Source of the DNA: Bacteroidota bacterium
Lineage (GTDB): Bacteria > Bacteroidota > Bacteroidia > UBA7662 > JAIXUI01
Direction: 5' to 3'
Assembly: GCA_027484125.1 (NCBI GenBank)
Contig: JAIXUI010000009.1
Coordinates: forward strand, 1-64,000
DNA: 64,000 nucleotides
How positions within the stretch are numbered: the first letter of the stretch is position 1; each line of letters opens with the position of its first letter. This document shows positions 1 to 16,200 of this stretch, piece after piece. The notes beneath the pieces are model-generated. The model saw only the letters and a list, made by a program, of their open reading frames with translations, did no database searches and was not told the DNA's origin. A program made the position numbers and the translations under genes.

Positions 1-3
1 AAA

Positions 4-324
4 TCGAATCGATTATGCGAAGCGTCGGAACGACTTCGTGAAGTGTCGAATCGATTATGCGAAGCGTCGGAACGACTTCGTGAAGTGTCGAATCGATTAT
101 GCGGAGTGTCGGAACGACTTCGTGAAGTGTCGAATTGATTATGCGAAGCGTCGGAACGACTTCGTGAAGTGTCGAATCGATTATGCGGAGCGTCGGAACG
201 ACTTCGTGAGGTGTCGAATCGATTATGCGGAGTGTCGGAACGACTTCGTGAGGTGTCGAATCGATTCTGCGAAGTGTCGGAACGACTTCGTGAAGTGTCG
301 AATCGATGATGCGAAGCGTCGGAA
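4..324. repeat. Tandem repeat array, 21-bp units in an alternating A/B 42-bp higher-order repeat (about 15 units; may continue upstream of the window)
   Basis: Units start at 4, 25, 46, 67 ... 298 with no phase slip; A = TCGAATCGATTATGCGAAGCG, B = TCGGAACGACTTCGTGAAGTG, with a few substitutions per copy; last unit truncated after TCGGAA at 319-324. Confidence 0.95.
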
Positions 325-358
325 AAATTCATTTTTACCTTTCACCCCTCCCCCACAA

Positions 359-383
359 AAAAAGGGGCCGTTGGCCCCTTTTT
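359..383. terminator. Bidirectional rho-independent terminator downstream of icmF
   Basis: AAAAAGGGGCC-GTT-GGCCCCTTTTT perfect inverted repeat. Confidence 0.85.
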
Positions 384-414
384 AATTTCATGGTGTTGTG
401 CCGGGTGGCGCGGT

Positions 415-3400
415 TTACATATTTCTACGGTATTGCCCGCCTACGGCGTAGAGGGCGGCGGTGCACTGGCCGAGGGAGCAGTATTTGGCTACTTCCATCA
501 GGGTGCTGAAGAGGTTCTCGTTGCGGATGGCGGTTTCTTGGAGCTGGCGCAACAGGGTAGGGGTGCGGTCGGCCTGGGCTTGATGCAGGGAGTTGAGCAT
601 GTTGATCTGCCCTACTTTCTCTTCTTCGGTGGCCCTGATAACTTCTTGCGGGATTACGGTGGGTGAGCCTTTGCTGCTGAGGAAGGTGTTCACGCCGATG
701 ATGGGGAGCTCGCCGGTGTGTTTCTTCATCTCGTAGTAAAGGCTTTCTTCCTGGATTTTGTTTCGCTGGTACATGGTCTCCATCGCGCCTAATACGCCTC
801 CGCGCTCGGTGATGCGGTCAAACTCGGTGTAAACGGCTTCTTCTACGAGGTCCGTCAGCTCTTCAATGATGAAGGCGCCTTGTAGCGGATTCTGGTTTTT
901 CGCTAAGCCTAACTCGCGGTTGATGATCAACTGAATGGCCATCGCTCGGCGTACGCTTTCTTCGGTAGGCGTGGTGATGGCTTCGTCGTAGGCGTTGGTG
1001 TGGAGGGAGTTGCAGTTGTCATAGATGGCGTAGAGCGCCTGTAAGGTGGTGCGGATGTCGTTGAAGTCGATTTCCTGGGCGTGCAAGGAGCGGCCGGAGG
1101 TCTGGATGTGGTATTTCAACATCTGGGAGCGTTCGTCGGCGTTGTATTTATTCTTCATCGCTTTCGCCCAAATACGGCGTGCTACGCGTCCAATCACGGC
1201 GTATTCCGGGTCGGTGCCGTTGGAGAAGAAGAAGCTGAGGTTGGGGGCAAAGGCGTTGATGTCCATGCCGCGACTGACGTAGTATTCTACGAAGGTGAAT
1301 CCATTGGCCAGGGTGAGTGCGAGCTGGGTGATGGGGTTCGCGCCTGCTTCGGCGATGTGGTAGCCGGAGATGGAGACGGAGTAGAAGTTGCGGACGTTGT
1401 GGTCAATGAAGTACGACTGTACGTCGCCCATGAGGCGGAGGGCAAATTCGGTGGAGAAGATGCAGGTGTTTTGGGCTTGGTCTTCTTTGAGGATGTCGGC
1501 TTGTACGGTTCCGCGAACGGAGCTCAGGGTTTTCTTTTTGATTTCGGCATAAACGTCGGCTGGTAGCACTTGGTCGCCGGTGATGCCAAGGAGGAGCAGG
1601 CCAAGGCCGTTGTTGCCTTCCGGTAGTTCGCTGCCGCCTTCGGCGTTGCGGTAGGCGGGTCTTGGAAGGCCACGGTCATCGTAGAGGGCTTTCAGCTTTT
1701 CTTCTACCAGCGACTCCAGGTTGTTGGCGCGAATGTATTTCTCGCATTGCTGGTCGATGGCGGCATTCATGAAGAACGCAAGCAGCATCGGCGCCGGACC
1801 GTTGATGGTCATGGAAACGGAGGTGGCAGGATCGCAGAGGTCGAAGCCGGAATAGAGTTTCTTGGCATCGTCGAGGCAGCAGATGCTGACGCCGGAGTTG
1901 CCGATTTTGCCATAGATGTCCGGGCGATAGTCGGGATCGTTGCCGTATAAGGTTACGGAGTCGAAGGCGGTGGATAGTCGCTTAGCGGGCATGCCCAGTG
2001 AGACGTAGTGAAAGCGTTTGTTGGTTCGCTCTGGTCCGCCTTCACCGGCAAACATTCGGGTGGGGTCTTCGCCTTCGCGTTTGAAGGGAAATACGCCCGA
2101 GGTGTAAGGATATTCACCCGGTACGTTTTCTTGCAAACTCCAGCGAAGGATGTCGCCCCAGGCGGTATAGCGTGGCATGGCCACTTTAGGAATTTGCAGG
2201 TGGGAAAGGCTTTCGGTGTGGGTGTCCACCTGAATGGCTTTTCCTCTTACATAATAGGTGAATACCGGGTCTTGATAAGCCTTACGTTTCGCGGGCCACT
2301 CTTCGATGAGCTTCCAGTTGCGTGGATCGAGGTCGAGTTTGAGGCGGTCGAATTCGGCTTCGAGTAGTCGCTTGAGGTTTTCGTCCTGGGTAATTTTCAG
2401 GGTAGTGTGAACGCTGTAGAGGTTTTGGGCTACTTCTACTTGTTTGTCCACCCATTGTCCATAGCCTCGTGCCGACTCGGTGATTTCGCTGAGGTAGCGG
2501 GTGCGGTGTGGCGGGATGATGTAGATTTTCTCTGACATCTCTCCGTTGAAGGCGAAGCTGCTGGAGAGGGCGGCGCCGGTTTTCTCTACGAGGCGGTCCA
2601 TGATGGCGCGGTAGAGGCGGTTCATGCCGGGGTCGTTGAACTGGCTGGCGATGGTGCCGTGTACGGGCATATCGTCTAGTGGTTGTTCCCAGAGCTGGTG
2701 GTTGCGTTGGTATTGTTTGCGGACGTCGCGAAGGGCGTCGAGGGCGCCGCGTTTGTCGAATTTGTTGAGGGCGATGAGGTCAGCGAAGTCGAGCATGTCG
2801 ATTTTCTCGAGTTGGGTGGCGGCGCCGTACTCTGGCGTCATCACGTACAGGCTGATGTCGCTGTGTTCGATGATTTCGGTATCACTTTGGCCGATGCCGG
2901 AAGTTTCGAGGACAATGAGGTCGAAGGCGGCGGCTTTCACGATGTCCACGGCATCTTGAACGTATTTACTCAGGGCAAGGTTGCTTTGGCGGGTGGCCAG
3001 GGAGCGCATGTACACCCGTCCATTGGAGATTTCCGGGCTGATGGCATTCATGCGGATGCGGTCGCCGAGGAGGGCACCGCCGGTTTTCCGTTTAGAAGGA
3101 TCTACGGAGATCACGGCCATCTTTTTATCCGGGAAGTCGAGCAGGAAGCGGCGAATCAGCTCATCTACTAAGGATGACTTTCCTGCACCACCGGTACCGG
3201 TAATTCCGAGAACTGGCGCTTTGCGTTCCAGCTGCTCGATTTTCTGCTGGATAAGTGGGCGATAAGCGTCGAAGTTTTGGGGGAAGTTCTCGGCAGCGGA
3301 GATGAGGCGGGCGAGAACGGCCGGGTCTTTTTCAACGAGTTGTTCTACTTCGTTGGTGAGGTGTTCGCCGGTGGGGAAGTCGCTGCGTTGGAGCAGGTCG

Positions 3401-3810
3401 TTGATCATGCCTTGCAGACCCATGGAACGACCATCATCGGGGGAGTAGATGCGGTCTATGCCGTAAGCATGAAGTTCTTCGATTTCGGTAGGAAGAATGG
3501 TGCCGCCACCGCCACCGAAGATTTTGATTTGTGGAGCTCCTTTTTCCCGGAGGAGGTCGTAGATGTATTTGAAGAACTCTATATGGCCGCCTTGGTAAGA
3601 GGTGATGGCAATGGCTTGAGCATCTTCTTGAATGGCGCAGTTGACGATTTCTGCGGCGGAGCGGTTATGCCCCAGGTGAATTACCTCGGCACCACTGCTT
3701 TGCAGGATTCTGCGCATGATGTTGATGGCAGCGTCGTGGCCGTCGAACAAGGAGGCGGCGGTAACGATGCGGATATGATTCTTGGGCTGGTAAGGAGCAA
3801 CCGTTTGCAT
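415..3810 (-). CDS. icmF: Fused isobutyryl-CoA mutase / methylmalonyl-CoA mutase family protein (B12-binding domain + MeaB-like G-protein + mutase large subunit)
   Basis: 1131 aa; N-terminal B12-binding domain, central [18 protein letters not shown]-loop, C-terminal mutase domain. Confidence 0.92.
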
Positions 3811-15876: not shown

Positions 15877-16200
15877 CAATTTCGATTGAGAATGGAGTAA
15901 GAGCAATCTTGAATAAAATAAGGGCATCCTTCAATAGATTAAGGTCGATTTGGAATAGATTAAGGGCAACCTGGATTTGAGTTAAATCGATAAGGAAAAA
16001 AGTGTAGTCGATTGGGAATAAATTAAAGGCGACTTGGAAGAAAGTAAGGTCACTTGGGAAAAGAATAAGGGCGACTTGGATTTGAGTTAAATCAATAAGG
16101 AAAAAAGTAAGGTCACTTGGGAAAAGAATAAGGGCGACTTGAATAATCGTAGAGTCAATTGGGTAGAAATTAAGGACGACTTGAAGGAAATTAAGTGAGG
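15877..16200. repeat. Degenerate tandem repeat array, 21-bp units (about 15 copies) in strict phase
   Basis: Units at 15877, 15898, 15919, 15940, 15961, 15982, 16003, 16024, 16045, 16066, 16087, 16108, 16129, 16150, 16171 (+16192 partial); approximate consensus TAAGGKCGAYTTGGRAWARAW. Confidence 0.93.

Follow-up and report, generated by a model that had tools for sequence, protein, structure and literature searches.

A probable lineage-specific minisatellite of alternating 21-bp units, and unrelated 21-bp array families, in a Bacteroidota genome

The tandem array at the left end of the stretch of DNA analysed (64,000 nucleotides, hereafter the window) is probably an intergenic minisatellite, non-coding and lineage-specific, that grew by in-register expansion and now and then gave rise to copies at other loci. 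A recombination-driven minisatellite had been one of the readings offered in an earlier note on this DNA, and it was supported by the in-register expansion in 42-bp steps, the array-specific variants of one unit type (P = 0.0002), the unrelated flanks and the non-coding nature of the repeats. This family (F1) was one of about seven 21-bp array families found at 19 or so loci of the genome (approximately 5.7 per Mb), and the sharing of 21 bp by unrelated families is the most interesting point of this work.

The array in the window and its sister arrays

The full units of the window array occupied positions 3-317: eight A units (like GTCGAATCGATTATGCGAAGC) and seven B units (like GTCGGAACGACTTCGTGAAGT) in the order ABABABABABABABA. 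TRF reported positions 4-324, with a period of 42, 7.6 copies and 94% matches. The roughly fifteen alternating A/B units described in the earlier note at 4-324 were therefore confirmed, with perfect alternation. Lag identity within the array was 0.94 at 42 bp vs. 0.64 at 21 bp, and reached a maximum of 0.36 at lag 42 in 2000 shuffles of the array. This excess at lag 42, together with the strict ABAB order, indicates that the amplified unit of F1 was 42 bp, as had been proposed. The absence of any phase slip, also claimed previously, held for the window array but not for a sister array on contig C78, where two consecutive A units were the only break in ABAB order in the family.

Table 1. Arrays and neighbouring features, with positions in base pairs or by contig.
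Feature	Position	Strand	Description	Basis
F1 array	3..324	+	15 full 21-bp units plus partial unit GTCGGAA	TRF and in-register reading
Terminator-like inverted repeat	357..386	.	G+C-rich, A and T runs on its flanks, AAAAAAAGGGGCCGTTGGCCCCTTTTT; between F1 array and icmF	Read from sequence
icmF-type fused acyl-CoA mutase gene	415..3810	-	1131 aa	ORF-based call and domain matches
F5 array	15923..16190	+	12 diverged 21-bp units between fabI-like and relA/spoT-like genes	Gene names by reading proteins
F2 and F3 arrays	C106, C156		Side by side	
F4 array	Near end of C95			
F6 array	Start of C1			
F7 array	End of C8, start of C118			
F8 array	C101			

The left edge of the window array is an assembly end, position 1 of the window being the first base of contig C73 (the genome comprises 167 contigs and 3.33 Mb). 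The first 63 bases of the window, including the AAA ahead of the first unit, matched the left array edge of contig C113 exactly and, given this match, the window array may already be near complete. C73 and C113 may show the same array from its two sides or in two versions, or they may carry separate arrays that have a left edge in common; if they are a single locus, the number of F1 loci is four.

A search of the whole genome located the A/B family on five contigs (C73, C60, C78, C95 and C113), carrying 25 full A units and 24 full B units; all 49 were of constant length, arranged head-to-tail only and spaced by exactly 21 bp in all five arrays. All matches with up to one mismatch in the genome fell inside these arrays; no solo units were detected, matches outside the arrays being no more numerous than in a reversed-pattern control. 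Four of the five arrays were terminated by a contig end, the only complete one being that on C95, with seven units. A units differed at a mean of 1.56 positions within arrays vs. 3.25 between arrays (permutation P = 0.0002), and B units at 1.30 vs. 1.65 positions (P = 0.05), a likeness within loci that amounts to local homogenisation, clear for the A units. Nine of the 21 positions were invariant in the 49 units: positions 2-4, 6, 9, 10 and 15 were the same across A and B, and positions 5 and 7 were fixed inside each type. This invariance could be a sign of constraint, and as such counts against the minisatellite reading; clustering of the conserved positions was not significant (P = 0.33).

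F1 was not found in 99 relatives, all from outside the family of this genome, nor in a further 394 genomes of the class (degenerate two-unit pattern, up to two mismatches). No match was obtained in the GTDB species set and viral contigs with exact degenerate patterns, or in plasmid and phage collections with the A/B patterns, and the open-access literature searched yielded no account of 21-bp arrays for this group. On these searches, F1 appears to be lineage-specific, being confined to one of the genomes searched. The earlier note had held that a private expansion in a single genome, with no related array elsewhere, would weaken a regulatory or architectural role: the family was indeed private to this genome, but the window array was not alone, having four sister arrays.

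The genes readable beside the arrays, according to ORF-based gene calls, encoded the acyl-CoA mutase, SecDF, a membrane-fusion protein, hexapeptide and pentapeptide-repeat proteins, and a CarboxypepD_reg protein, the far sides of four arrays lying past contig ends. The product of the window icmF carried B12-binding, MeaB and MM_CoA_mutase domains, and these fused acyl-CoA mutase domains ruled out the IcmF of type VI secretion. Three F1 arrays followed gene 3' ends (icmF at 91 bp, secDF at 79 bp and the membrane-fusion protein gene at 15 bp), and two lay in the 5' regions of the hexapeptide-protein and pentapeptide-repeat genes; the C113 array was adjoined by a run of pentapeptide-repeat protein genes (L039 2540-5882). 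Among 13 arrays inspected from all families, every gap shorter than 100 bp separated an array from a gene 3' end, and gene starts were 132 to 667 bp away, a distribution that fits promoter avoidance. The orientation of F1 with respect to neighbouring genes was mixed, as were the signs of GC skew on the array contigs, which are short for a check of replication orientation. Arrays of other sequence were also seen at the icmF 3' end in two relatives, with a 21-bp period in G013 (L055 2714-2791) and periods of 35/25 bp in G008 (L043 1295-1441). A hotspot for arrays behind icmF was considered and rejected: these two cases among about 16 sites are too few for the claim.

Other 21-bp families and a possible origin

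A scan of approximately 1.1 Mb, about one third of the genome, revealed further 21-bp arrays of other sequence (F2 to F8; Table 1). Their autocorrelation peaked at 21, 42 and 63, and in most of them the peak at 42 or 63 exceeded that at 21. By targeted searches, F2/F3 were located at five sites, F7 at three or four and F4 at three, and F5 and F8 each had a single locus; the total of 19 or so includes F1 and F6 as well as the loci on C162, C142, C44, C112, C43 and C131, which were counted from the searches, whatever their position relative to genes. A search of 20 further genomes of the order returned none of F2/F3, F4, F5, F7 and F8 at E <= 0.001. Only one of the 28 family pairs compared, F5 and F6, was clearly related (P = 0.00025 before correction), and no relation of F1 to any other 21-bp family was detectable by sequence. 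Descent of all families from a single ancient 21-bp array is excluded only to the limits of sequence similarity. F2 and F3 occurred in identical order at two loci (L181 15978-16770 and L113 19120-19657), and this common order indicates that a composite block was copied.

In 0.78 Mb sampled across five other members of the order, no comparable 21-bp array was seen, and the arrays present there had other periods (e.g. heptamer-derived 14/21, 22, 24 and 35). Six intergenic arrays in 1.01 Mb of the present genome, leaving out the window array, vs. none in 0.78 Mb gave P of approximately 0.03 by our own binomial estimate, from modest numbers. Isolated 21-bp arrays did occur outside this genome, behind icmF in G013 and in G041.

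The presence of several unrelated 21-bp families in one genome suggests that the genome tends to amplify repeats in general, and speaks less for a binding site serving a single gene. A history of the following kind may be envisaged. A 21-bp unit would have been duplicated and its two copies would have diverged into A and B; the AB dimer would then have grown and shrunk through unequal recombination or replication slippage, and pieces of arrays would now and then have been copied into other intergenic sites. The arrays would persist because such sites tolerate them, and not by virtue of a site-specific function.

The period common to unrelated families is beyond plain slippage and counts against the minisatellite reading. 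A length of two B-DNA turns (2 x 10.5 bp) is an obvious candidate for the common measure, but 1-bp slips were present in F3. There is some chance, though a small one, that an active process of this lineage, with an intrinsic 21-bp measure set by an enzyme footprint or by two-turn geometry, creates, dimerises and spreads new satellite families between genes whatever their sequence. Two further ideas were tried and rejected. For a half-unit (one helical turn) conserved across families, a window test was not significant (combined P = 0.14), and a test of neighbour autocorrelation gave P = 0.004, owed mainly to F7. Derivation from a heptamer (21 = 3 x 7) was not reflected in lag-7 and lag-14 identities, which were near background apart from a mild rise in F7.

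Alternative readings of the F1 arrays

The array might be the core of a small mobile element of the MITE, REP or BrickBuilt type, mobilised by a transposase in trans. The dispersal of F1 over five intergenic sites whose flanks are unrelated, the existence of a comparable 23-nt array (BrickBuilt of P. gingivalis, PMC4596501) and three Y1_Tnp matches in the genome are consistent with this explanation, but the arrays had no common leader, tail, flanks or inverted ends (four left and two right flanks compared). Terminal inverted repeats and target duplications were likewise not seen at the one complete array, on C95, whose borders share at most GGAA, itself part of the unit. In addition, the contigs with Y1_Tnp matches carried no F1 unit and no Y1_Tnp gene lay on the F1 contigs, so that an association of F1 with a RAYT was rejected. 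A mobile element is accordingly unlikely.

The earlier note had also offered a protein-binding or nucleoid-organising array, in which a protein would occupy every 21-bp unit, successive units presenting the same face of the DNA at intervals of two helical turns. The exact spacing in all five F1 arrays, the weak dyads in A and B, the invariant positions and the identical spacing of the other families would suit such an array. The dyads themselves were poorly kept: AATCGATT was present in six of eight A units of the window array but in only 16 of 25 in the genome, and ACTTCGTGAAGT in five of seven B units of the window and in only 11 of 24 overall. All six A units on C78 had lost the A dyad, and compensatory restoration was not observed at any dyad pair in the 49 units. 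Solo F1 sites were missing from the genome, F1 had no sequence in common with the other 21-bp families, and the spacing slipped by 1 bp within F3. With dyads broken and uncompensated, no solo sites and the sequence missing from relatives, the proposal was not upheld; judged from the DNA sequence, a protein-binding or nucleoid role of F1 is unsupported, and one protein per unit seems improbable.

A structured RNA, or an element for termination or mRNA protection behind icmF, is very unlikely. Several arrays followed a gene 3' end at a distance of 15-91 bp, in two cases directly past a terminator-like hairpin, and array RNA was slightly more stable than shuffled sequences (z = -1.8 and -1.5). 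In the window, the right flank of the array included a self-complementary stretch at the terminator-like repeat, which was absent from the list of a strict consensus terminator scan. Nevertheless, self-pairing is favoured by any repeat, single units folded no better than shuffles, RNA and DNA folding of F1 was weak or none, and the orientation to neighbouring genes was mixed. All Rfam matches were below the gathering score and represented sub-threshold chance matches only.

Translation of the array as a stretch of protein that repeats every 7 or 14 residues is hardly credible: frames are open through the array on both strands, but some would stay open by chance because the unit length is divisible by three, substitutions within unit types were distributed 20/25/21 by codon position with no third-position bias, the frames on C95 continue into unrelated flanks, and stops in the more open F4 frames and 1-bp slips in F3 speak against coding.

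Comparison with known repeats

The minisatellite reading places F1 among dispersed non-coding bacterial satellite families, three features of which (constant head-to-tail units, several loci and non-coding sequence) were found in F1. Plasmid iterons are also tandem units of about 20-22 bp; F1 differs from them in its several loci and its chromosomal housekeeping neighbours, and no initiator gene was seen among the adjacent genes that could be read.

According to Subirana and Messeguer (2019, PMC6749651), satellite families of the dispersed, non-coding kind are rare among prokaryotes: their survey of 261 prokaryote genomes found transposed non-coding families with long repeats in only two species. 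Those of Leptospira interrogans and Methanocella conradii resemble F1 in being non-coding tandem arrays with one family at several loci per genome but have repeats of 37-69 nt, whereas here unrelated families share a 21-bp unit with higher-order periodicity of 42/63 bp (PMC6749651). To these the present genome adds at least four dispersed families; unrelated families with one unit length, and a dimer/trimer periodicity as in eukaryotic satellites, are new with respect to the available text of that survey (PMC6749651).

BrickBuilt of Porphyromonas gingivalis, also a member of the Bacteroidota, is similar to F1 in its spacer-free head-to-tail units (23 nt), its exclusively intergenic position and its narrow host range, and is present at 19 loci (PMC4596501). 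It has a leader and a tail segment and, in many copies, inverted ends of IS5-like type, none of which was seen in F1, and the sections consulted describe no A/B alternation, which is the rule in F1 (PMC4596501). CGTC-tagged REPs, whose hosts include Bacteroidetes, share with F1 short intergenic units of palindromic character with CGTC at unit borders, but they have stems of 8-9 bp and form mostly head-to-head dimers that are rarely clustered, in contrast to the head-to-tail units and weak, unconserved dyads of F1 (PMC3733652). The REP hairpin of an 8-9 bp stem and a 4-5 nt loop was not found in F1, whose dyads had 4-5 pairs and were often broken, nor were F1 units mostly solo elements or head-to-head dimers, as REPs are.

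These families make the birth and spread of bacterial satellites a question that is testable within one organism, and 21-bp arrays may be what breaks contigs and produces spurious repeat ORFs when such genomes are analysed. Arrays outside the 21-bp pattern were also observed at contig ends, with units of 69 bp and 37/38 bp (L087 1-237 and L167 8440-8724, respectively), and heptamer-based arrays with peaks at 14, 21, 28 and 35 (L174 12745-12997 and L179 11151-11480) were of a different repeat kind.
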